Source of the DNA: Amycolatopsis sp. FDAARGOS 1241
GTDB lineage: Bacteria; Actinomycetota; Actinomycetes; Mycobacteriales; Pseudonocardiaceae
Reading direction: 5' to 3'
DNA length: 64,000 nt
Assembly (NCBI RefSeq): GCF_016889705.1
Contig: NZ_CP069526.1
Coordinates: forward strand, 9,204,001 to 9,268,000
Part shown: piece by piece, positions 14,046 to 56,581 of the stretch
Position numbering within the stretch: position 1 is the first letter of the stretch
Layout of the letters: each line of letters starts with the position of its first letter
The notes under the pieces: model-generated
The model's input: the letters and a program-made list of their open reading frames with translations, nothing else
The model's database searches: none
What the model was told of the DNA's origin: nothing
Program-made: the position numbers and the translations under genes

Positions 14046-14897
14046 GTGCGGGTGACCGATTTCCTGACCGACGCGCTCGTCGCGTACCGCGCCGGCGACC
14101 CGGCCGGCGCCGCCGCGTTGGCCGCCCGCGCCGGAACGCCCTTGGGCGAGCAGCTTTCGATCTACCTCGCCACCGACGGGTCCGGCCCGGTGTACGACCA
14201 ACCGGCGGCCTTCACGGCGTTCATCCGCGGCGGCGGCAACGTCGGGCTGTACGAGCGGCTGAGCGCGGCGCTCGCTGCCGAGTACGAGCGGCGGAAGCCG
14301 GAGTCGTTGCTGGACTTGGGTTGTGGCGACGGGCTGGCCGTGGCGCAGGCCCTCGCGCAGTCGTCGTTCCGGCCGGCGCGGATCGACCTGGTGGAACCGT
14401 CGGCGGCACTGCTCGCGGACGTCGGCGTGCCCGAGGCCAACCGCTTCGAGGCGACCGCGCAGAGCTTCCTCGCGGTGAACGGTTCCACGTGGAACCTTGG
14501 GCAATCGACCTTCGCGCTCCAGTCGATCTCACCCGCCGAACGAGTCGCGGTGCTGCGGGAACTTCGGTCGCGCACGGAAAAGCTCGTGCTGGCGGAGTTC
14601 GACATTCCCGTGCTCGACGAGGGCTCCCGCGAGTTCCTGGGCTCGCTCGTGACCCGCTGCGAGCGCGGCGTCGCCGAATACGGCCGACAGGCTCCCCTTG
14701 TCGCGCAAGGCTTCCTGGTGCCGGTGCTGCTCGGCGTCGCCGCCGGTGCCGAGCGCACGAACTGGGAACAGCCGGCCGCCGCGTGGGTCACCCAGCTCGA
14801 GCTCGCCGGGTTCACCGACGTGACCGTCGAACCCCTCGCCGACTACTGGTGGTCTCCCGCCGTGCTGATCACCGCGCGTGGTTCAGACGAGGGCTAA
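14046..14897 (+). CDS. Class I SAM-dependent methyltransferase
   Basis: A 283-residue protein with the SAM motif LLDLGCGDGLA near 87-97 and acidic motif II (IDLVEPS) in the usual order. An N-terminal helical extension of about 70 residues precedes the Rossmann domain. The substrate is not evident. GTG 14046 follows the histidine-kinase stop by 16 bp, so it may be co-transcribed. The 3' end overlaps the end of the convergent TNT-like gene by 15 bases. Confidence 0.75.
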   Translation: MRVTDFLTDALVAYRAGDPAGAAALAARAGTPLGEQLSIYLATDGSGPVYDQPAAFTAFIRGGGNVGLYERLSAALAAEYERRKPESLLDLGCGDGLAVAQALAQSSFRPARIDLVEPSAALLADVGVPEANRFEATAQSFLAVNGSTWNLGQSTFALQSISPAERVAVLRELRSRTEKLVLAEFDIPVLDEGSREFLGSLVTRCERGVAEYGRQAPLVAQGFLVPVLLGVAAGAERTNWEQPAAAWVTQLELAGFTDVTVEPLADYWWSPAVLITARGSDEG

Positions 14898-16772
14898 CCA
14901 CCCGGCTTCCACGTGCTGCGCGATCGGCCGCGGCAGCAGGTACGCCGTCGCGCCGCCGGGCTGCGGGCCCCACGGCGCGGTCACGCCGGTGAGCACTCGC
15001 AGCGTGCGCTGCACGCGGTACTCGTGGCGGTCGCGTTCGCGTTCGGCGGACAGCGACGTCTCCACGAACCGCGTGCCGATCGCGTGGACCAGGTTGCCGG
15101 CGTCGCCGCCGAAGCGGAGCACCGTCGTGCCCGCGGGCAACGCGACCACGCGCTTGCCCCGGTAGAAGCTGAGCGGCGGCTCGCCGCGCATCGGCAGGAT
15201 CGGCCAGTCGGCGGGCTGGTCGGATTCGTCGCCGCCGCGTGGCGGCAGCATCAGCAACGTGCCGAGCAGGAACCGCGCGGCCTCGGCGATGCGCGCGAAC
15301 GCGACGGGCTCGGCGTCCGGCGGGCACGAGACCTCCCAGCCGTTCTCGGCTCGGCGCAGCGTCCACACGCCGTCGGCCGGCACCTCGTTCGCGCCGATCC
15401 GGTACGCGCTTGCGGGCACGCCCTGCTCGTCGAGACGCTGCTGCAGCAGCTTCAGCGTTTCGGCGGCGTGCAGGCCCCGGCCGAGGTCGCCGTCGCGGAT
15501 CGCGCGGGCCAGGCGGCTCTCGTCGGGGAGCTCGCCCTCCGAGCGCGGCGGGCGCGGGGTTCCGAGCACCTCGGCCTCCGCCGTCGCACGCACGAGCTCC
15601 CGCACGAACGGCGGCCGGAACCCCGCCGCGCGGATGTGGTCCACGAGCTCCGGCTCCGGCGGCACGCCGTACTTGCGCAGGTAGTGCGGCACGGCGGCGG
15701 GCCAGATCCAGGCGCCGTCGGTGTGGAAGGCCTGCGGTACGTCGGGCGGCGCGCCGGGCGTGAAGATGTCGTGCTGTGGTTGCGGCCGGTGCAGCACGAC
15801 GGGCGCGCGGAACAGGTAGTCGAGCACGCCGCGCACCTGGTCCGGCGGCACCGGCGGCCGGTTGACCACGGGCCGTTCGTTCTCGTTGTGGGCGTCGACC
15901 ACGCGGGCGTGGCGGAACGCGAGCTCGAGCGGCCGGCCTGCCTTCGCGGCGAGCCAGTCGGGCACCTGCTTCGGCGGGCGCGGGTGGTTCGCTAGCTCCA
16001 CGGCGTACGACTGCGCCGGGCGCCCGCCGTCGTTCGGGGCCACCCGCCAGGTGGGTTCTCGCTCGGCGTCGAAGTCGAAGTCGAACTGCGATTCGGTGTC
16101 GAGTGTGAACGTCCCCTGGAACCACGTGCCGGTGTCCGGCTCGTACATCGCCGCGCGCAGCTGCGCGAACAGCGCGCTCAGCTTCGGCGGCGCGGGCAGC
16201 GCGACGGACACGGGCCCGTTCTCGTCGCCGACCGCGCGGACCTCCAGCTCCGCGTAGTCCCCGACCTGCCGGAACTGCGCGGCGACGCGCGTCCAGCCAC
16301 CGGGCACCGCACGCAGCGTGCGGCCGATCGCGCGCAGCAGGGTACCGGGGTCGGCGTCGAAGTCCGGCCGCGGCTCGCCCTGGTCGCGGCGGACCTGCCA
16401 CAGGCCCGTCACGCGCTTGGCGTCGACAGTTGTGGAAAACTCGGCGAGGCCGAGTTGCTGCGCGCGCACGCGGTCGTGCTGCGTCCAGCGCAGCGTCAGC
16501 TCCTTCTGCTCGCCGGGCGCGACCTCGAAGAGCTCGTCGTCGAACTCGCAGTACGTGCTGAGCGTGAAGGTGGCGGGGACCTCGGTCGCCGGCACCACCC
16601 GGGCCGGGCGGCCCTCGTGCTCGCGGTCGAACCCGTCGGGGGTCTCTTCGTCGGGCAGCACCGACAGCAGCAGCGTGCCGTCCGTCGTCGACCGTTGGGC
16701 CGCGAAGGTGCGGTCGTCCAATGTTGCGTACAAACCGTCCGGGCGGTCTCCCGCCTCTACCCGGTAACGCAC
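14883..16772 (-). CDS. YezG-like/TNT-like two-domain protein (B)
   Basis: A 629-residue soluble protein with no signal peptide. Residues 1-125 are a beta-rich module not present in paralogue A. About 140-290 resembles the YezG/DUF600 immunity fold (LRAAMYEPDTGTWFQ, then FDFDFDAEREPTW). About 305-420 is a shared module with HTDGAWIWPAAVPHYLRKYG. The last 100 residues resemble the TNT (tuberculosis necrotizing toxin, NAD glycohydrolase) fold: LPAGTTVLRFGG, then TAPWGPQPGGATAYLLP. The glutamine expected after PGGG in TNT is Ala here, and the second conserved Arg is also missing, so activity is doubtful. It is the last gene of a five-gene operon. Confidence 0.72.
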   Translation of the reverse strand: MRYRVEAGDRPDGLYATLDDRTFAAQRSTTDGTLLLSVLPDEETPDGFDREHEGRPARVVPATEVPATFTLSTYCEFDDELFEVAPGEQKELTLRWTQHDRVRAQQLGLAEFSTTVDAKRVTGLWQVRRDQGEPRPDFDADPGTLLRAIGRTLRAVPGGWTRVAAQFRQVGDYAELEVRAVGDENGPVSVALPAPPKLSALFAQLRAAMYEPDTGTWFQGTFTLDTESQFDFDFDAEREPTWRVAPNDGGRPAQSYAVELANHPRPPKQVPDWLAAKAGRPLELAFRHARVVDAHNENERPVVNRPPVPPDQVRGVLDYLFRAPVVLHRPQPQHDIFTPGAPPDVPQAFHTDGAWIWPAAVPHYLRKYGVPPEPELVDHIRAAGFRPPFVRELVRATAEAEVLGTPRPPRSEGELPDESRLARAIRDGDLGRGLHAAETLKLLQQRLDEQGVPASAYRIGANEVPADGVWTLRRAENGWEVSCPPDAEPVAFARIAEAARFLLGTLLMLPPRGGDESDQPADWPILPMRGEPPLSFYRGKRVVALPAGTTVLRFGGDAGNLVHAIGTRFVETSLSAERERDRHEYRVQRTLRVLTGVTAPWGPQPGGATAYLLPRPIAQHVEAGWLALV

Positions 16773-16814
16773 GTCAGATTCCTCCCCAAAATCCCCTGCG
16801 GACCCGGAAAGAAC

Positions 16815-17888
16815 TTAGTCGACCGGATAACGCGCGAACCAACGGTCATCACTCGGTGAGTCCGGACCGAATTCGGCGAGCGCGTCGTCAGCCAGACCGG
16901 TGATCACGTCGCGCAGTTCGAGCCGGTCGAGCCAGCTCTCGCGCAGCGCCGCTTCTCCGTACATCGCGCCGACGAGGTTGCCGCACACCGAACCCGTGGA
17001 GTCGCTGTCGCCGCTGTGGTTCACGGCCGCGAGCAGCGCGGAGCAGGGATCTTCGGTGGTCAGGGCCACGTACACGGACATCGACAGGGCGGTCTCGCCG
17101 ACGTTGCCCTCGCCCAGTTCGGCGAGCCGCTCCGGTGTCGGCGGCCCGGACAGTGCGAGCGCCTGCGCCAGCGCGGCTTCCTGTTCCTCGTGGCCCGGGT
17201 GGCGCACGAGTTCGGCGCGCGCGGTCGCGACGGCGGCCGGGAGACCTTCACCCGCCAGCAGCCGCTGCACGATCACCGCGAACGCGCCCGCCGACAAATA
17301 CCCGCTCGGGTGACCGTGGGTCAGGGCCGCGCACTCCGCGGCGAGCGCGAAGACCTCGGCCGGGTCGGGCGACCACAGCGCCACGGGCGCCACGCGCATC
17401 ACACCGCCGCAGCCCTTCGAGTTGTTCACCGGTCGCGTGATGCTGCCGCGGACACCCGAGCGGCCGTACGCCTCCAGCTCGCCGAAGCACGTGAGCCCCG
17501 GAGCACGGCGGCTGAACAGCTCGTGGTGCGTCACGAGCTCGCCGTCGGGCGCTGCGAGCGCGGAATGCGGGCCACGCGCCCGATCCCACGGCACACCCTG
17601 CGTGTGCAGCCAGCGCTGGTAGGCCAGCTGCACGGAGTGGACGACGTCGGCGCTGCCGGTGCGCCGCTGCTGCGCGTGGGCGCGGATGAGCGCTTCGAGC
17701 GTGAAGAGCGTCATCTGCGTGTCGTCGGTGAAGCGGCCTTCGCCGCCGTACGCGGGCAGGTAGTCGGTGATCCCCGCGGGCCCGGTGAGCTCCCGGATCC
17801 GGTCGATCGTGTCGAACTCCGTCTTCGCCCCGAGCGCGTCGCCGATCGCGCCGGCGAGCAGGCAGCCCCTCAGCCGCTGTGCCTCCAT
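16815..17888 (-). CDS. ADP-ribosylglycohydrolase family protein, metal motifs intact
   Basis: A 357-residue all-helical DraG/ARH-family protein. Binuclear metal ligands are present: GCLLAGAIGDALG at the N-terminus, TDDT at 54-57 and DSDST at 294-298. The family removes ADP-ribose from proteins or hydrolyses O-acetyl-ADP-ribose and related esters. ATG 17888 was chosen because family homology starts at once; its ribosome site is weak, which suits coupling to the gene 29 bp upstream. It sits between a degenerate paralogue and a TNT-like protein, so it may reverse ADP-ribosylation connected with NAD-consuming toxins. This role is inferred. Confidence 0.88.
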   Translation of the reverse strand: MEAQRLRGCLLAGAIGDALGAKTEFDTIDRIRELTGPAGITDYLPAYGGEGRFTDDTQMTLFTLEALIRAHAQQRRTGSADVVHSVQLAYQRWLHTQGVPWDRARGPHSALAAPDGELVTHHELFSRRAPGLTCFGELEAYGRSGVRGSITRPVNNSKGCGGVMRVAPVALWSPDPAEVFALAAECAALTHGHPSGYLSAGAFAVIVQRLLAGEGLPAAVATARAELVRHPGHEEQEAALAQALALSGPPTPERLAELGEGNVGETALSMSVYVALTTEDPCSALLAAVNHSGDSDSTGSVCGNLVGAMYGEAALRESWLDRLELRDVITGLADDALAEFGPDSPSDDRWFARYPVD

Positions 17889-17917
17889 GGCGCCATTTTC
17901 TTCACGTGCCGCCGGCT

Positions 17918-20164
17918 TCAGCGCCGCGGGTACCGCTGCACCCACTCCTCGCCCAGCATGCTCAGCGCCGAGCGGCGGTCGAAGTGCCACAACGCGTCCG
18001 TGGCGAGCTGCTCGATGAGGTGGCGCAGCTCCAGCTGTTCCACCCACTTCTGCGGCAGCCCCGGCACACCCACGCGGGCGCCGAGCAACGCGCCGGTGAT
18101 CGCTCCCGTCAGCGCGCTGCGGCCCGAGTGGTTCACCGCGCGCAGCAGCGCCTGTTCGGGGTAGTTCTCGAAGCCCGAGAGCGCGGCGAAGGCGCGGCCG
18201 ACCACGGACAGTGTGCTCTGGCCGTCGCCGATCAGCTCGGGCATGCGCAGGTCGGGCAACCCGTGCTCGCCGAAGAACGGCACGGCCTCGGCGACCATCG
18301 CCTTGACCGCCGCCCACTCCGGACCGGTCACGAACGTCGTGTTGTGGTCGGTGAGGATCTCGCGCGAGAGGTTCCACACGGGGTAGCTGAACGCGTCCTT
18401 GGTCAGCACCGGCTCGAACAGCCACGCCAGGTAGGTCGCCGCGGACACGTCTTCCTCGTGCGGATGGGTCACGCCCACCAGGTCGCGCACGGCCTGGCGC
18501 ACGCCGCCGCTGAAACCCGTGCCAGGGCCGGCCGCGGTGAGCACGGCGGGCAGCGCGCCGATGAGCGCGGTCGGGCCCGCCAGCGCCACGGCCTGCGGGT
18601 TCCCGGTCACGAGAGCGTGGTAGGTGTTGAGCTCGGTGTCGTCGGCGGTGCGGCGGACGTGCAGGTCGGGCACCTTCACGAGCCAGCCGTCGGCGTCGTC
18701 GTACGGCGCGCCCTGCGTGTGCAGCCAGCGCATCAGCGCGCCGCGCACCACGGCGGGGAACTGCTGCTCGACGTCGCGCGACTCCGGCTGCTCGCGGTGC
18801 GGGCTGCGGATCACGGCCTCGGTGTAGAAGAGCAGCCGCTGCGTCAGCGAACCGATGCGGCCCGGCTGGTCGAATGCCATCGGCAGGTCGGTCACGCCCT
18901 CGGGGCCGAACTGCGTGACGATCTCGTCGAGCCGCATCCGGTCCACGGCCAGGCCCAGCGCCTCGCCGAGCGCGAAGCCGACGTACGCGCCGATCACGCG
19001 CTGCCAGCCGTAGCGGAAGTTCTCGAGGTCGTGTTCGGGGTACTTGCCGAACGTGTCGAGCCGCGGCACCACGCGGCCCTGGTTGTCCCAGCCGGGGACG
19101 AGCCCGTTGGCGCGCCAGTCATTGGGCTTGCTGCGCGGCGGCTCCGCCATGGCGAGGCGCTTGAGCCACGACTGGCCGAGTACGGTCCGCTGGCACTCCT
19201 CGGCGGTCAGCTCGAAGCCGTGGCGCCGGGCCTTCTCGGCGGCGACCAGCGGTGCCTGGACGGGGTCGTCGAGCCCCATCCGCGTGGCGGTGTCGGCCGT
19301 GAGCCGCTCGAGCTCGTCCTCGGCTTCGGGGCAGCGCCCGTGCCGGTCGATGCGCGGCTCGTGGCGCGGGAACCGGCGCGCGATGGCCGTGAGTTCCTCG
19401 CCGGTGACGTCCTCGAACGTCGCCGGGCCGCCGTTGATCACGAGGTTCGGCGGGTGCTCGAACTCGGCGAGCGTCGCCAGGTCCACGCGCCACCAGGCGT
19501 GCTCGCGCGGCGGGAAGTGGCGAGTGTCGCTGAAGACGCGCAGCTCGTTGCGCTCTTCGCTGAAGTAGAAGCGGTCGGTGGCACCGGTCTTGAGGTCGAG
19601 CGGCACGTAGACGTCGCAGCGCAGCAGGCCGATCAGCAGCTGCTCACGCGAAAGCCAGCCGACGCTGGCGAACGCGAGCAGCGTCTCGAGCGTGTTCTGC
19701 GGCTTGGGGTAGCCGCGGCGGATCGGGCCGGCCTTGTACTCGGGGTTCTCGCGCTCGTCGCCGGTCTGCTGGCCGTCGTTGTCGACCTTCACCCAGCCGG
19801 CCACGGCGTGCAGCGGCACTCCCAGCTCGCCGAAGCCGGCCTTCACGTACTCCGGGTCCACGACTTCGCGCCAGCTCTCCTGGCCGGGGAACGCCACGGG
19901 GATGCTCAGCCCTCCTGGGCTCGGGGGCGCTTGGCGCAGCTCGCCGTCCGGCTCGCGCACGACCACCGACGGGGTCGGGAAGAGCTCCTTGTCCGGCCGG
20001 CCGTCGTCGAGGAACGCGACGGTGTTGTACGGGATCGACCAGCCTTCGGGAATGCGCAGCACCCGGTCCTGGTCCACCCGCAGCCCGCCGGGGCCGGAGA
20101 CGTCGGGGCCGTGCACGGCGCGCAGCCAGTGCCCGACCTTCTCCATCGCTTCCGCCGCTTCCAC
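17918..20164 (-). CDS. Immunity-domain fused, degenerate ADP-ribosylglycohydrolase
   Basis: A 748-residue protein. Residues about 10-130 resemble a YrhB/Imm35-type domain (RIPEGWSIPYNTVAFLDDG), and about 130-290 a second module. About 400-745 is an ADP-ribosylglycohydrolase fold (IGAYVGFALGEALGLAVDR) that keeps the architecture, but TDDT is replaced by GSLT and DSDS by RSAL. The metal site is lost, and it should bind rather than hydrolyse. GTG 20164 abuts the upstream stop codon (20167-20165), with GGAGAGGA ten bases before. ATG 20146 is an alternative start. Confidence 0.77.
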   Translation of the reverse strand: MEAAEAMEKVGHWLRAVHGPDVSGPGGLRVDQDRVLRIPEGWSIPYNTVAFLDDGRPDKELFPTPSVVVREPDGELRQAPPSPGGLSIPVAFPGQESWREVVDPEYVKAGFGELGVPLHAVAGWVKVDNDGQQTGDERENPEYKAGPIRRGYPKPQNTLETLLAFASVGWLSREQLLIGLLRCDVYVPLDLKTGATDRFYFSEERNELRVFSDTRHFPPREHAWWRVDLATLAEFEHPPNLVINGGPATFEDVTGEELTAIARRFPRHEPRIDRHGRCPEAEDELERLTADTATRMGLDDPVQAPLVAAEKARRHGFELTAEECQRTVLGQSWLKRLAMAEPPRSKPNDWRANGLVPGWDNQGRVVPRLDTFGKYPEHDLENFRYGWQRVIGAYVGFALGEALGLAVDRMRLDEIVTQFGPEGVTDLPMAFDQPGRIGSLTQRLLFYTEAVIRSPHREQPESRDVEQQFPAVVRGALMRWLHTQGAPYDDADGWLVKVPDLHVRRTADDTELNTYHALVTGNPQAVALAGPTALIGALPAVLTAAGPGTGFSGGVRQAVRDLVGVTHPHEEDVSAATYLAWLFEPVLTKDAFSYPVWNLSREILTDHNTTFVTGPEWAAVKAMVAEAVPFFGEHGLPDLRMPELIGDGQSTLSVVGRAFAALSGFENYPEQALLRAVNHSGRSALTGAITGALLGARVGVPGLPQKWVEQLELRHLIEQLATDALWHFDRRSALSMLGEEWVQRYPRR

Positions 20165-21556
20165 CTACTCGATCCTCTCCAGGCTTCCGTCGGACTCGTG
20201 CTCCGCGATCGGCTTGGGCAGCACGTACGCCACCGCGCCGCCCGGCAGGTTGGCCCAGGGCACCGTGACACCGGTGACCACGTGGAGTGACCGTCTCAGC
20301 CGGTAGGTGTGTGCCACCCGTTCCCGTTCGAGTGGTAGTGACGTCGTGGCGAACCGTACCTCGCCGTGGTGGACGAGGTTGCCCGGTTCCTCCCCGAAGC
20401 GCAGGACGACCGTACCTTCGGGCAGTCGCGTCAGCCTCTTGTTGCGCAGCAGTGTCAGCGGTGGATCACCCGCGGCAGGCTGGATCGGCCAGTCGTCCAC
20501 CTCTTTCGCGGTCTCCAGCGGGGTCTCGCGTCCGCCGGTCAGCCGGGCCGGGTGCAGCAGCAGTGCGCCGAGGAGCTGCTGCGCCGCGTCCGGCAAGTGC
20601 GTGAAGGTCTGCTCGGCGCCGGTGGCCGAAGTGACCGTCCAGCCGGCTTCACCGCGGCTCAGGCACCACTTGCCGGCTTCGACGGCGCCGATCCGGTACG
20701 CCTGCGGCCAGACGCCGAACGACCCGAGCCGCTGCACCAGGACCACGAGCAGCTGTTCGTCGCTCAGCTCGGGATCGGCGCTGGTCTCGAGCTCGGCGGC
20801 GACGTCGCCTTCGGTCCGCTGCCCGTCCTCGGCGCCCGGTCGTGGCCGCGGTTGACCCAGCAGGTCGGCCTCGGCGGTGCGGCGGACGAGGTGTTCGACG
20901 TAGGGCGGCTGGAAGCCCAGTTCACGGATGTGCGCGACGAGTTCCGGCTCGGGCGCGATGCCGTGCCGGCGCAGCTGGTGCGGCACGGTCTCGGGCCACA
21001 GCCACGTGCCGTCGGTCCGGTGCGTGTCGCCGACCAGCGCTTCGCGCTCGAGGTACTGCAGCACGAGCGGCAGTTCCCCGTCGGGCAGCGGCTCGCGCTC
21101 CTCCCCCACCTCGGCGGGACGCGCGCGGCGGAACCGGACGCCGAGCGGCAGGCCGACCCGCAGGCGCCACCAGTCGGGGATGTGCTCGTCCTCGCGGGGG
21201 AACGTCTCGAGCTCGTCGCGGTAGGCGTCCGGTTCGGCCGGGGCGCTCCACTGCGGGTCGCCGTCGACGTAGAAGTCGAAGTCGAACGTGCCGTCGGGCG
21301 CCAGCACGAACCGGGCCTGCAGCCACGTGCCGCGGCCCTGCCGGTACATCCCGGCGCGCAGCGCCTCGAACTTGCCGGTGACGTCCTGGTTCGCCTCGGT
21401 GTTGCGCGGCTGGACTTCGGTGTGGCCGCCGACCTGTGCGAAGCCGATCCCGGCGGGTGCGGCGGGATCGGGTGAGTGGGCGCGGATCAGCCGGCCGATC
21501 TCGACGAGCAGTCCGTGCTGCTCGGATTCGGAGAGTGGTTCCACGGGGTTCAGCAC
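20165..21556 (-). CDS. YezG-like/TNT-like two-domain protein (A)
   Basis: A 463-residue paralogue of the protein encoded at 14883-16772. A YezG/DUF600-like domain covers about 10-135 (LRAGMYRQGRGTWLQARF, FDFDFYVDGDPQW). The HTDG-like module appears as RTDGTWLWPETVPHQLRRHG. The TNT-like C-terminus, about 370-460, has LPEGTVVLRFGEE and VPWANLPGGAVAYVLP. As in B, Ala replaces the glutamine expected after the PGGG turn. It lacks the extra 125-residue N-terminal module of B. No signal peptide is seen, so it is cytosolic or exported by a type VII-like route. GTG 21556 lies 15 bp after the YbaB-like gene. Confidence 0.72.
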   Translation of the reverse strand: MLNPVEPLSESEQHGLLVEIGRLIRAHSPDPAAPAGIGFAQVGGHTEVQPRNTEANQDVTGKFEALRAGMYRQGRGTWLQARFVLAPDGTFDFDFYVDGDPQWSAPAEPDAYRDELETFPREDEHIPDWWRLRVGLPLGVRFRRARPAEVGEEREPLPDGELPLVLQYLEREALVGDTHRTDGTWLWPETVPHQLRRHGIAPEPELVAHIRELGFQPPYVEHLVRRTAEADLLGQPRPRPGAEDGQRTEGDVAAELETSADPELSDEQLLVVLVQRLGSFGVWPQAYRIGAVEAGKWCLSRGEAGWTVTSATGAEQTFTHLPDAAQQLLGALLLHPARLTGGRETPLETAKEVDDWPIQPAAGDPPLTLLRNKRLTRLPEGTVVLRFGEEPGNLVHHGEVRFATTSLPLERERVAHTYRLRRSLHVVTGVTVPWANLPGGAVAYVLPKPIAEHESDGSLERIE

Positions 21557-21570
21557 ATCCGGGCGCGGCC

Positions 21571-21891
21571 TCAGGAGCCGCGGCGGCGGTTCTGCGGCAG
21601 GGCGCTGCGCGGCGGCACGCTACGCGGGCGGACGCGGCGGGGCGTCGGCCGCGGTGCCGGCATCTGCTGCGGCTGGCCGTCGGCGAGCGGGGCCTCGGCG
21701 AGCTGCTGCACCAAAGCCTGGACGGTGTACGCGAGCTGCGCGGGCGTCGTGCGCTCGAACGCGTCGGGAGCGAACTCGAGCCGGCCGAGCGCGCCGTTGG
21801 CGCCGACCGTCACCCGGACCAGACCGTCCGGCGAGGTCAGGACGGCAGGAGCGACGTCCAGACGGGCGCGGTCGTCCCCTGCGGTACTCAC
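21571..21891 (-). CDS. YbaB/EbfC-like small protein
   Basis: A 106-residue protein whose residues 15-70 (GLVRVTVGANGALGRLEF and AFERTTPAQLAYTVQALVQQ) match the YbaB-like proteins found beside WXG100 and polymorphic-toxin genes in Actinobacteria. The tail is Pro/Arg-rich and basic, so nucleic-acid or partner binding is possible. From GTG 21891 it heads the operon of TNT-like and ADP-ribosylglycohydrolase genes. It is not the recR-linked YbaB. The exact role is unknown. Confidence 0.68.
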   Translation of the reverse strand: MSTAGDDRARLDVAPAVLTSPDGLVRVTVGANGALGRLEFAPDAFERTTPAQLAYTVQALVQQLAEAPLADGQPQQMPAPRPTPRRVRPRSVPPRSALPQNRRRGS

Positions 21892-53384: not shown

Positions 53385-54203
53385 TCAGCCCAATGCGCTC
53401 TGTGCAGTGCGTAGCCGATCGGCGATCGCCTTCGGCGTGCCCGGCGTGAACACGATGAGCGAGTCGCCGCGCCCAGGCCGCTCCTCCATCAGCCAGCGGC
53501 CCTCGCTGGTGTCGATGAAGTTGATCGGCTTCGGGATCCGCCGGCGCCGCCCGCCGTTCGGCCGCGACGCCACGTACAGCGCCCCGCCGCCGGTGCGCGG
53601 CGCCTTGAGGATCCGCTGGATCTCCTTGAGCGGGGCGAAGTCTTCGTTCCGCCCCGGCCCGCTCTGCATGATCGACCGCTGCGACACGTCCTCGGAGCCG
53701 GCCGCCCGCCCGCTCTCGAACTCGCTGCGGCTGGTCACCAGCGGCGCCCCGGAGGCGGCCCGGCCTTCGGGGATGATGTCGAGGAACGTCTGGAGCAGCA
53801 GGTCCGGGCGCTGCCGCGAGACTGTCACGGTGGGATCACCGATCACGCGCACCAGCGCGAACCCACCGCCGTTGCCGCTGCCGACGAGCGTCGCGAAGTT
53901 CGAGGGGCTGCCGTCGTCGAACGTGCCGTCGAACCACCCGTAGTACTCGATCTGCGGGTGACAGATCGATTCGACGAGCGCCAGGAGGTCGCGGTCCATG
54001 CCGCGCGGCCCCATCAACCCGAGCTCGGTGAGCACCGCGTTGACGTCCTGGTCGATCCGGCGCTCCGCGGCCGGGTCGTAGAACGTCGCCATGTCGGCGA
54101 ACGTCTGGTGCGGCTCGCCGCCCCGGCGCTTGATCAGGTTGAACAGCGTCGGGGCGGTGAACTTGGTCGGTCGGTCGAGAATGATCACGTCGTCCGTCCT
54201 CAT
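53385..54203 (-). CDS. EspG-family ESX secretion-associated chaperone
   Basis: 272 residues with the EspG pattern: an N-terminal beta-strand, helical middle and YYGWFDGTF / GGGFALVRVIGDPTVTVS strands. EspG proteins bind PE/PPE-type type VII substrates in the cytoplasm and deliver them to the ESX machine. The ATG overlaps the stop of the PPE-like gene by four bases, strongly suggesting that the PPE-like protein is its client. No secretion-apparatus genes (eccB-E) are in the window. Confidence 0.85.
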   Translation of the reverse strand: MRTDDVIILDRPTKFTAPTLFNLIKRRGGEPHQTFADMATFYDPAAERRIDQDVNAVLTELGLMGPRGMDRDLLALVESICHPQIEYYGWFDGTFDDGSPSNFATLVGSGNGGGFALVRVIGDPTVTVSRQRPDLLLQTFLDIIPEGRAASGAPLVTSRSEFESGRAAGSEDVSQRSIMQSGPGRNEDFAPLKEIQRILKAPRTGGGALYVASRPNGGRRRRIPKPINFIDTSEGRWLMEERPGRGDSLIVFTPGTPKAIADRLRTAQSALG

Positions 54204-55579
54204 TCACCGATCACGGGCGGGGCGGTCATCTCGTCGGTGCCGAACAGCTCGTTGGCGTCCTCCTCGACGAGGTACTTCGTCTGGTGCTCCTCGTCTTCGG
54301 AGCCCTTCTGGCCCTTCGCGCCGGCGGCACCCATGCCGCCCATGCCCGACGTCCCGGGCTTGCCCGCCGCGCCGGCACCGCCGAACGCGCCACCTCGCAA
54401 GCCACCGGCACCGGCCGCACCGGAGCCCGCGCCACCGACGCCGGCCGCCGCGCCCGAAGCCGCACCACCCGCGCCGAAGCCGCCACCGAACCCGCCGGGG
54501 CCGAAGCCCGCGACGCCACCGCCGAACCCACCGCTGCCGGCACCGCCACCGCCGCCAGGCCCGAAGCCGGAGCCGCCGCCCGGCCCGAACCCGGAGCCGG
54601 GCCCGAACGTGCTCCCGTCAACCGACGACGGCGTGAAACCCTGCGCCGTCGTCGAGTCCGAACCCGGCGGGTTGAACGTGGAGTCGGTGGGGTACTGGGT
54701 GTTGAGGCCGTTGGGGTCGTTCACCCTGCCGCCGTTGATGTCCGTCGGCTTGGCGTCGAACTTGGGCATGTCACCCGGCTTGTAGCTGCCGCCTCCGCCA
54801 CCACCGCCTCCGCCGCCGCCGCTGAAGCTCGGCGTGTTCGGACCACCGCCGGGCCCACCGGGGCCCTTGCCTCCGGGCGGGGTGTTGGACAGGTTGTTGC
54901 CCTGCCAAGCGCTGTACTGCGGCAGCGACTGGGCATTGGTGTTCGAGGCGTTGAAGTAGTTGGTGTACGCCTGGACGTTGGCCTTGGCGTTGTCGTTGTA
55001 CTGGTTGATCTCGTCGTCTTTGTCGCTCATCGGGTTGATCCCGTCGAGGAACCCGGCGGACGGCGGATCCTTCGGCAGCGACTGCACCTTGCCCTTGACG
55101 GTGTGGAAGCATTCGACCTGGTTGCCCAGGTACATATCGCTCTTGCCGAGGTTCTGGGCCGAGTCCTGCAGCCAGATGCCGAGCGGGTGCGCCCCGGCCT
55201 GCGCGGCGGTCGCACCGCCACCCTGCCAGGCCTCGTCCATCTTCTTGTTCAGGTTGTCGATCTCGGTGACGCGGTTGCTGTGCACGTCCTTGAGCGATGC
55301 CGCAGCCTTCGCACCACCCTCGAGCGACGACGCATCGCCAGCGTGGATCTTCTGGTAGATCGTGTAGGCGTCGATCGATCGGCCACCCAGATCGGCCGAT
55401 TGCTGCTGGGCCTCGGGCCCTCCGCTGAAGAGACCGACCAGGCTGCCGGCGATCGCACCTACACCAGCGCCGACCGCCGTGCCGACTCCGGGCACGACCG
55501 AGCCGATCGCGGCGCCGACGAGGGCACCGGCCGCGGCGTCCTTCATCTCCTTGCCCACAGTGTTGGCGTCATTCCCCAT
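54200..55579 (-). CDS. PPE-like, glycine-rich ESX substrate with glycine-zipper N-terminus
   Basis: 459 residues. About 12-52 is a glycine-zipper-like hydrophobic stretch (AAAGALVGAAIGSVVPGVG, then TAVGAGVGAIAGSLVGLF). 65-225 is helical with a PPE/WXG-like helical pair. 230-425 is Gly/Pro-rich. The end is a conserved acidic tail (EEDANELFGTDEMTAPPVIGE) of the kind seen in Pseudonocardiaceae ESX substrates. It probably crosses the membrane by type VII secretion with the small partner encoded upstream. The zipper segment may insert in membranes. Confidence 0.75.
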   Translation of the reverse strand: MGNDANTVGKEMKDAAAGALVGAAIGSVVPGVGTAVGAGVGAIAGSLVGLFSGGPEAQQQSADLGGRSIDAYTIYQKIHAGDASSLEGGAKAAASLKDVHSNRVTEIDNLNKKMDEAWQGGGATAAQAGAHPLGIWLQDSAQNLGKSDMYLGNQVECFHTVKGKVQSLPKDPPSAGFLDGINPMSDKDDEINQYNDNAKANVQAYTNYFNASNTNAQSLPQYSAWQGNNLSNTPPGGKGPGGPGGGPNTPSFSGGGGGGGGGGGSYKPGDMPKFDAKPTDINGGRVNDPNGLNTQYPTDSTFNPPGSDSTTAQGFTPSSVDGSTFGPGSGFGPGGGSGFGPGGGGGAGSGGFGGGVAGFGPGGFGGGFGAGGAASGAAAGVGGAGSGAAGAGGLRGGAFGGAGAAGKPGTSGMGGMGAAGAKGQKGSEDEEHQTKYLVEEDANELFGTDEMTAPPVIGE

Positions 55580-55621
55580 GATGAGCCACTCCTTCCGAGC
55601 AGAGGATCAGGCGTGCGGTGG

Positions 55622-56215
55622 TCACGCCGCCCCCTTGAGGTGTCCGACCATCGCGGTCGCGAACTTCTGTGCGAGCCCGCACGGGTTGTTCTTGTTGTCG
55701 CCCACGCCGATCTGCGGGATCACGGATACCGCGAGCTGATCGGTCACCCCGACCCAGAGCGTGCAGGTCCCGGACGGTCGGCCGTCCTGGATGTCGGCGA
55801 ACACCCCCGGGTAGCCGTCGATCGTCACCGGCTCGAAGTACGCCGACTGGGCTTTCTGGTCGTAGATGTCGCTGATCCCGCCCTTGTTCTGCGGCAGCGG
55901 CCGGATCGCGATGGAGTTCTGGTCGCTGCGCGTCGACTTCCACGTGCACCCGGTGAGCTGGCCGGTGTCCTTCTTGCCGGGCGAAGCCAACCCGACCTGG
56001 GTGGCTTCACTCGCCGACAGCACGCTGCACGGGTCGTTCAGCAGCGCGTCGGTCGGCAGCGGCGACGGCACCTTGGGTCCCGACCCCGCGGCCTGGCTGC
56101 TCGACGGCGCGGAGGACGAGGGTGTGGTGCCGCTGCCGCTGCCGCTGTCGCAAGCCGTGAGGCAGGCCAAGGCGGCGACGGTTCCGGCGGCGACTCGAAC
56201 GGTGCGGGAGATCAT
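55622..56215 (-). CDS. DUF3558 family lipoprotein
   Basis: 197 residues with a lipoprotein signal ending LTAC (Cys22), a Ser/Gly linker, and the DUF3558 pattern NDPCSVLSASEATQVGL, GCTWKS, GTCTLWVGV and NNPCGLAQKFATAMV, with four cysteines in the mature domain. These proteins accompany ESX substrate genes in Pseudonocardiaceae. It lies between the small ESX substrate and the PPE-like gene in the same operon. Exact function unknown. Confidence 0.85.
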   Translation of the reverse strand: MISRTVRVAAGTVAALACLTACDSGSGSGTTPSSSAPSSSQAAGSGPKVPSPLPTDALLNDPCSVLSASEATQVGLASPGKKDTGQLTGCTWKSTRSDQNSIAIRPLPQNKGGISDIYDQKAQSAYFEPVTIDGYPGVFADIQDGRPSGTCTLWVGVTDQLAVSVIPQIGVGDNKNNPCGLAQKFATAMVGHLKGAA

Positions 56216-56221
56216 GCGGGG

Positions 56222-56581
56222 CTAGGCTCCAGACTTCAGGTTGTCACGGGCTTGCTGCTCCGTGACGGTGATCTTGTTCTTAGCCGCTTTCAGCGCAGTG
56301 ACGAAGTTGTTCACGTAGTCGTGCATGCGTTGGTGCTGTTCCAGCAGAGTCTGCCCCGACGGGTTCGCGCCGCCCTTGACGAAGTCGCTGCTCGCGAACT
56401 CGTCGGCCGGTGGCTTCACGTATGCGATCGTCCTGGCGTTGTCGAGGTCGGTGTTCAGATTGTCGGCGAGGTCCTGCCACTGCTTGATGACGCCGTCGAT
56501 CTCGTCTTCGCTGAACTTGTACCCGCCGCCCGAGCCGTAGCTGCCCACCATGATCGGCGGAGTCGGTGGAACTTCGGACAT
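56222..56581 (-). CDS. Small ESX substrate, WXG100/PE-like
   Basis: 119 residues, mainly a helical hairpin (FSEDEIDGVIKQWQDLADNL, then GQTLLEQHQRMHDYVNNFV). No signal peptide. Size, Gly-rich N-terminus and operon position mark it as the small partner of the PPE-like protein downstream. The exact WXG motif is not present. It is the first gene of the operon ending with EspG. Confidence 0.75.
   Translation of the reverse strand: MSEVPPTPPIMVGSYGSGGGYKFSEDEIDGVIKQWQDLADNLNTDLDNARTIAYVKPPADEFASSDFVKGGANPSGQTLLEQHQRMHDYVNNFVTALKAAKNKITVTEQQARDNLKSGA

Follow-up and report, generated by a model that had tools for sequence, protein, structure and literature searches.

Polymorphic toxins are known to carry ADP-ribosyltransferase (ART) domains of the R-S-E type, Tox-PL1 domains and RelA/SpoT domains (Zhang et al. 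2012, PMC3482391). According to the same paper, R-S-E ARTs are countered enzymatically by the immunity protein Imm-ARG, and Imm35 is directed specifically against Tox-PL1; Table 3 of the paper lists Imm35 as fused in some cases to an ADP-ribosyl glycohydrolase. A precedent for two modes of immunity against one ART toxin is Bxa, which is neutralised in two ways, through binding by one immunity protein and through the ADP-ribosyl hydrolase activity of another (the immunity proteins are Bsi and BAH; abstract of PMC11699363). The YezG/EsaG fold is found in the EsaD-EsaG and YeeF-YezG pairs, for EsaD-EsaG in the setting of a type VII secretion system (T7SS) toxin (PMC9616950, PMC7033585). Furthermore, genomes may hold immunity genes but lack the toxin that these match, which is described under the names of orphan immunity genes and polyimmunity loci (PMC3482391, PMC12247911, PMC10539506). 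Here we analysed a stretch of 64,000 nucleotides of Amycolatopsis sp. FDAARGOS 1241 (NZ_CP069526.1, positions 9,204,001 to 9,268,000), called the window, and a locus of five genes therein. These genes are probably the orphan immunity half of a T7SS polymorphic toxin operon, kept after loss of the toxin, and would still neutralise the toxin of neighbouring cells.

The locus spans positions 14,883-21,891 of the window, with all genes on the minus strand in the order YbaB-A-C-D-B and gaps of 14, 0, 29 and 42 bp, which confirms an earlier note on this DNA that had described five minus-strand genes with gaps of 0-42 bp. The YbaB-like gene (21571..21891) is a reduced form of 106 amino acids (aa). 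It is followed by a 14 bp junction (21557..21570), the site at which relatives carry a WXG100-like gene, the gene of a giant T7SS toxin and a gene of ~150 aa. Gene A (20165..21556, 463 aa) is homologous to residues 138-626 of B and has a TNT-like domain at residues 378-462 (20171..20425; Pfam and alignment). Gene C (17918..20164, 748 aa) consists of an Imm35 domain (residues 4-100; 19865..20155), a middle region and an ADP-ribosylhydrolase-fold domain that has lost the acidic motifs (residues 392-705; 18050..18991). Gene D (16815..17888, 357 aa) is an ADP-ribosylhydrolase with intact GDALG, TDDTQM and GDSDST motifs. Gene B (14883..16772, 629 aa) combines an N-terminal region with a YezG/EsaG-like fold (residues 137-243; 16044..16364; structure model) and a TNT-like domain (residues 545-627; 14892..15140; Pfam and structure model). 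Databases name such genes only 'TNT domain-containing' and 'ADP-ribosylglycohydrolase family' proteins, and none of the five locus proteins matched the PADLOC anti-phage defence profiles at E <= 0.01.

As with Imm-ARG and the R-S-E ART toxins, an ADP-ribosylhydrolase would act here as enzymatic immunity, but the hydrolase is paired with a dead Imm35-bearing hydrolase and the toxin is gone (compare PMC3482391); in some species the two are fused: six database proteins and locus L036 have D joined to C or to a second C. Bxa is prophage-borne in Bacteroides with its toxin present, and its abstract mentions no YezG/TNT or Imm35 parts (PMC11699363). In contrast to EsaD-EsaG and YeeF-YezG, the YezG/EsaG-like fold of this locus shares a polypeptide with a non-catalytic TNT domain, and the toxins differ (PMC9616950, PMC7033585). 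The orphan immunity genes and polyimmunity loci, as presented in the parts of those papers cited above, differ from the present case, in which the whole operon belonging to a multi-warhead toxin lies beside core genes and sister species hold a toxin-bearing allele. No prior description of this locus was found among the titles and abstract beginnings of the literature searched. Two known pairs also have to be compared, Tre1-Tri1 (PDB 6dre/6drh) and a Listeria pair of ART and ADP-ribosylhydrolase (PDB 8za7). Judged by PDB titles and NCBIfam names, both are set apart from the present site, where the toxin is a giant multi-domain T7SS protein, and D reached only 54.1 of 490 bits with the NCBIfam Tri1 profile.

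The main evidence comes from the same chromosomal site in relatives. In a sample of 200 genomes of the family, 54 besides the own genome matched B over most of its length. We read all 54 loci and found A in 20, C in 19 and D in 11 of them; the genes recur together. For all of the 19 loci with C except L035, L043 and L049, the region upstream was fetched, and each of these 16 had a YbaB gene, a WXG100-like gene and a giant open reading frame (ORF) of 1,789-2,936 codons upstream of A. The WXG100-like genes were called by BLAST to the L198 protein, which is itself above the Pfam cut-off. L038 and L213 belong to one genome and enter the counts a single time. By tblastn the giant is also present in L043 and L049, hence in 18 of the 19 C-bearing sample loci; the exception, L035, is window-like. 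Downstream of the giant lies the gene of ~150 aa, which in six loci (L216-L219, L224 and L225) is the giant's own C-terminus. In L223 (140-8335) the giant, the ~150-aa segment and an A-type protein form one ORF of 2,732 codons, a fusion which suggests that A is as much a part of the toxin side as of the immunity side.

Of the 62 named loci that have B, 38 also carry C. The giant and the small gene are both found in 27 of these 38 loci and the small gene only in one, eight are window-like and two have neither. The window-like loci are L095 of A. saalfeldensis and L096-L101 and L149 of the A. rubida group. In L155 (Amycolatopsis suaedae) the ~150-aa gene matches repeatedly, with 1,643 aligned residues in total from two queries, as if there were an array of small immunity-like genes. 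The biological conflict setting proposed in the earlier note is supported; the system is not self-contained as that note had it, since in 27 of the 38 named loci with C these genes lie downstream of a giant toxin gene that the window lacks.

A Pfam scan of five distinct giants of this site identified the papain-fold Gln_amidase domain in all five, a WXG100_2 N-terminus in all four that are complete, ART above cut-off in three and RelA/SpoT above cut-off in two. We built an ART profile from three of the site giants, which matched 15 of 16 site giants, these three included, each with S[TS]S and ExE patterns. Judged by these domains, the giant is predicted to be built like a T7SS polymorphic toxin that carries warheads of up to three kinds. 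Because the five genes follow this giant toxin at the same site in relatives and the toxin is missing here, they likely shield the cell from the toxin of relatives.

The anatomy and history of the locus rest on domains, residues, synteny, the tree and selection, and from these we infer each functional step. D would strip ADP-ribose off the targets of the toxin's R-S-E-type ART domain, and C would block the papain-fold domain through its Imm35 module, which matches the Imm35 profile above the curated cut-off. C may in addition supply a catalytically dead ADP-ribosylhydrolase as a partner of D, with which it perhaps pairs: the fold is retained, and the TDDT motif is lost in 41 of 41 aligned rows. 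Among D relatives, TDDTxM is found in 115 of 120 and GDxDxT in 119 of 120, and the D of the window has both, so the degenerate and the intact ADP-ribosylglycohydrolase of the earlier note are indeed C and D. Judged by its motifs, D is the only one of the five genes in which the residues of a known activity are found intact, and as an eraser of ADP-ribose it matches the ART domain of the toxin rather than the TNT domains. A and B would bind parts of the toxin by their YezG/EsaG-like and non-catalytic TNT-fold modules. YbaB in its shortened form may be a leftover of the export part of the operon; it has 101-106 aa in the window and L035, compared to 219 aa in L213 and 194 aa in L214, where the toxin is kept. 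The retained genes would then neutralise the toxin when neighbours deliver it.

In the window operon there is no WXG100-type trafficking domain or toxin, both of which are present in relatives. Likewise, no R-S-E ART toxin is linked to D in the window operon, and one is present upstream at the same site in relatives; no papain-fold (Tox-PL1) neighbour stands beside C in the window. A tblastn search of the window with YbaB, WXG, giant and small gene matched YbaB only, and no toxin remnant was detected in the 14 bp junction by tblastn at E <= 0.01. For the cognate toxin we searched the window genome with C-terminal 1000-residue pieces of giants and with Pfam families. The L214 piece had no match there and strong matches in four of four toxin-bearing genomes; in genome G171 it had a weak match of the RelA-like part only. 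The L213 piece had only a weak match in the window genome, to the papain region of an RHS toxin. ART of the PF01129 family was found in four of four toxin-bearing genomes and in neither of two toxin-less genomes, one of them the window genome, other ART families not having been searched. Within these searches no cognate toxin was found in the window genome, which makes the five genes orphans.

Besides the loci of this site, we read 16 loci with C elsewhere in the family. A giant ORF lies just upstream of C in 14 of them, often in the order YbaB, WXG, giant, sometimes the small gene, and C; D is directly downstream of C in L197, L199 and L208. Gene picking there used codon GC content, and the frames in L204, L207, L209 and L210 are uncertain. 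Gln_amidase was found in nine of the ten off-site giant C-termini scanned. The window genome itself has two other Imm35 matches, each at most 300 bp downstream of one of two Gln_amidase matches, so that C is its only Imm35 without a Gln_amidase neighbour. One operon of this kind, with YbaB, a WXG100_2/RHS/Gln_amidase toxin and Imm35, is L238 (1748-7867; ~3.397-3.403 Mb of the window genome).

The dN/dS ratios (nonsynonymous to synonymous rates) between the window and L035 are 0.23 for YbaB, 0.24 for A, 0.20 for C, 0.24 for D and 0.32 for B, with a dS of 0.41-0.59. The five genes are under purifying selection and therefore these orphan genes are not decaying. Such constraint in all five genes without a toxin would also be expected if they had been domesticated for a new cellular job after the toxin loss, for instance to take ADP-ribose off the cell's own proteins or DNA in a controlled way, A and B then acting as regulators that bind NAD or ADP-ribose. 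In many genomes that have neither C nor toxin, B still stands beside cca, which points the same way, as does an arginine that all 53 B and all 20 A relatives retain at the position of Arg129 in AfNADase, where it contacts phosphate (PMC7955114). We nevertheless regard domestication as rather unlikely: in 14 of the 16 loci read elsewhere the C relatives lie with giant toxin-like genes, the A. rubida group apparently lost D later than the toxin, as loci and tree indicate, and no PF01129 ART, the only ART family searched, was found in the genome to make a substrate for D.

We built a quick tree of 62 B proteins, excluding L151 with its frame-broken B, and took it as the history of the locus. The window and the eight window-like loci form one clade (SH-aLRT, Shimodaira-Hasegawa-like approximate likelihood ratio test, 99), which sits within a clade of 33 rows. 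Of the rows in the latter, 24 bear the toxin: 14 are sister to the window-type clade and 10 fall outside that pair. With the window-type rows nested among toxin-bearing rows, a single toxin loss in this Amycolatopsis group is the simplest history. The reverse, an ancestral YbaB-A-C-D-B into which the giant was inserted later in other lineages, is very unlikely on this nesting, and C-D pairs are also found downstream of giant toxin-like genes at unrelated sites in other genera; what fits it are the bare YbaB-B or B loci of outgroup genera and the short YbaB (87-106 aa) common to window-like and outgroup loci.

The catalytic motif of TNT domains is Arg-Phe/Tyr-Gln, formed in AfNADase by R129, F137 and Q194. 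In the A and B of the window only the Arg of this motif is kept. Mutants of AfNADase in any of these three residues are inactive, and R148 touches the nicotinamide (PMC7955114). The Phe137 equivalent is Leu or Val and the Gln194 equivalent Ala, Gly or Ser in all 73 aligned A and B relatives as well as in A and B of the window; the Arg148 equivalent is Thr or Ala in all 73 (53 B and 20 A). These counts leave out L083, a duplicate genome, and the non-syntenic L089-L094, of which one L089 row is poorly aligned. The folds named in the earlier note, TNT, YezG (in B), Imm35 (as YrhB) and ADP-ribosylhydrolase, are all present by Pfam or structure models: TNT was found by Pfam in A and B and, like YezG, in the structure model of B, and YezG in A follows only from homology to B, as neither A nor B matched the YezG/DUF600 Pfam family at E <= 1. 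Since residues needed by TNT NADases are lost, NAD cleavage by A and B, which the note had assumed, is unlikely. Accordingly, the idea that the genes form a self-contained NAD/ADP-ribose conflict or signalling system with NAD-cleaving TNT domains is very unlikely, given the loss at all three positions in 73 of 73 aligned domains, compared to R-F-R-Q kept in two of 30 other TNT domains (L182 and L185) and R-F-Q in the TNT of the L094 giant.

The 30 control domains are the best-scoring 28 loci of the genus plus L001 and L002 of the own genome, not all matches. L001 (8239629-8239886 of the window genome; L195 8822-11914) is a protein of ~1000 aa with a C-terminal TNT domain, adjoining a folD-like gene. 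It has R-L-R-A at the four checked positions, a type shared by 19 of the 28 other TNT loci of the genus that were fetched. In L094 (2441-13480) the WXG100_2 giant with the R-F-Q TNT has downstream of it a small gene that resembles the YezG-like part of A and B, and two larger A/B-type TNT proteins, making it another toxin with A/B-type neighbours.

Tentatively, the shield may work through dead folds throughout. A and B would carry emptied NADase- or ART-like domains and C an emptied ADP-ribosylhydrolase, each acting as a pseudoenzyme that occupies toxin, substrate or partner. C and D would erase ADP-ribose together as a heterodimer of pseudoenzyme and enzyme, and the array would be a stand-alone shield beside core genes against the multi-warhead T7SS toxins of neighbours. 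This is possible, though we would not expect it.

Several observations weigh against an orphan immunity operon as the full account of the locus. D is absent in seven window-like loci of the A. rubida group (L096-L101 and L149) and in six of the 16 toxin-bearing loci, five of which still match the ART profile, so the ART does not always come with D. Of the 61 named tree rows, 23 have B but no C, and because B is found at many loci that have neither C nor the giant, it must have a role that goes beyond this toxin. C scored 40 bits against the T7SS-associated family NF033532, whose cut-off is 85. The papain-fold domains sit within the giants of this site, a position for which Zhang et al. 2012 propose auto-processing (PMC3482391), and they may thus process rather than kill. 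Among the off-site loci, no Gln_amidase was found in the scanned part of the L200 giant and L201 has no giant next to C; in L206, where C was placed by one search and not by gene picking, the arrangement cannot be judged. Our ART profile matched eight of ten off-site giants, of which only one has S[TS]S. Moreover, the window genome has five WXG100_2 matches above cut-off, the best with 55.9 bits, and the array could serve against another T7SS-type protein of this genome; none of those tested carries the ART of the giant. One WXG100_2 match (9626915-9627277 of the window genome) lies within a 6,554-codon ORF, ~360 kb past the window.

A separate T7SS cassette is present in the window at 53385-56581, with an EspG family gene (PF14011, E 1.2e-37), a PPE-like protein of 459 aa under the cut-off, a lipoprotein-like gene and a 119-aa gene that is EspC/WXG-like by eye and without a Pfam match.

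Orphan immunity is known as a kind, and the variant here is a YezG fold joined to a pseudo-TNT domain together with Imm35 joined to a pseudo-ADP-ribosylhydrolase and paired with an ADP-ribosylhydrolase. Reading the locus as an orphan immunity operon explains an odd set of genes with generic database names. A TNT annotation alone does not make an NADase, as the catalytic residues are found in only two of the 30 top-scoring other TNT domains of the own genome and the genus. The finding raises the question which role catalytically dead toxin and hydrolase domains have in immunity proteins. It also raises the question whether orphan immunity operons protect against related toxin-bearing strains, for which a natural comparison at one chromosomal site is given by sister species that bear the toxin, lack it or have lost part of the shield.

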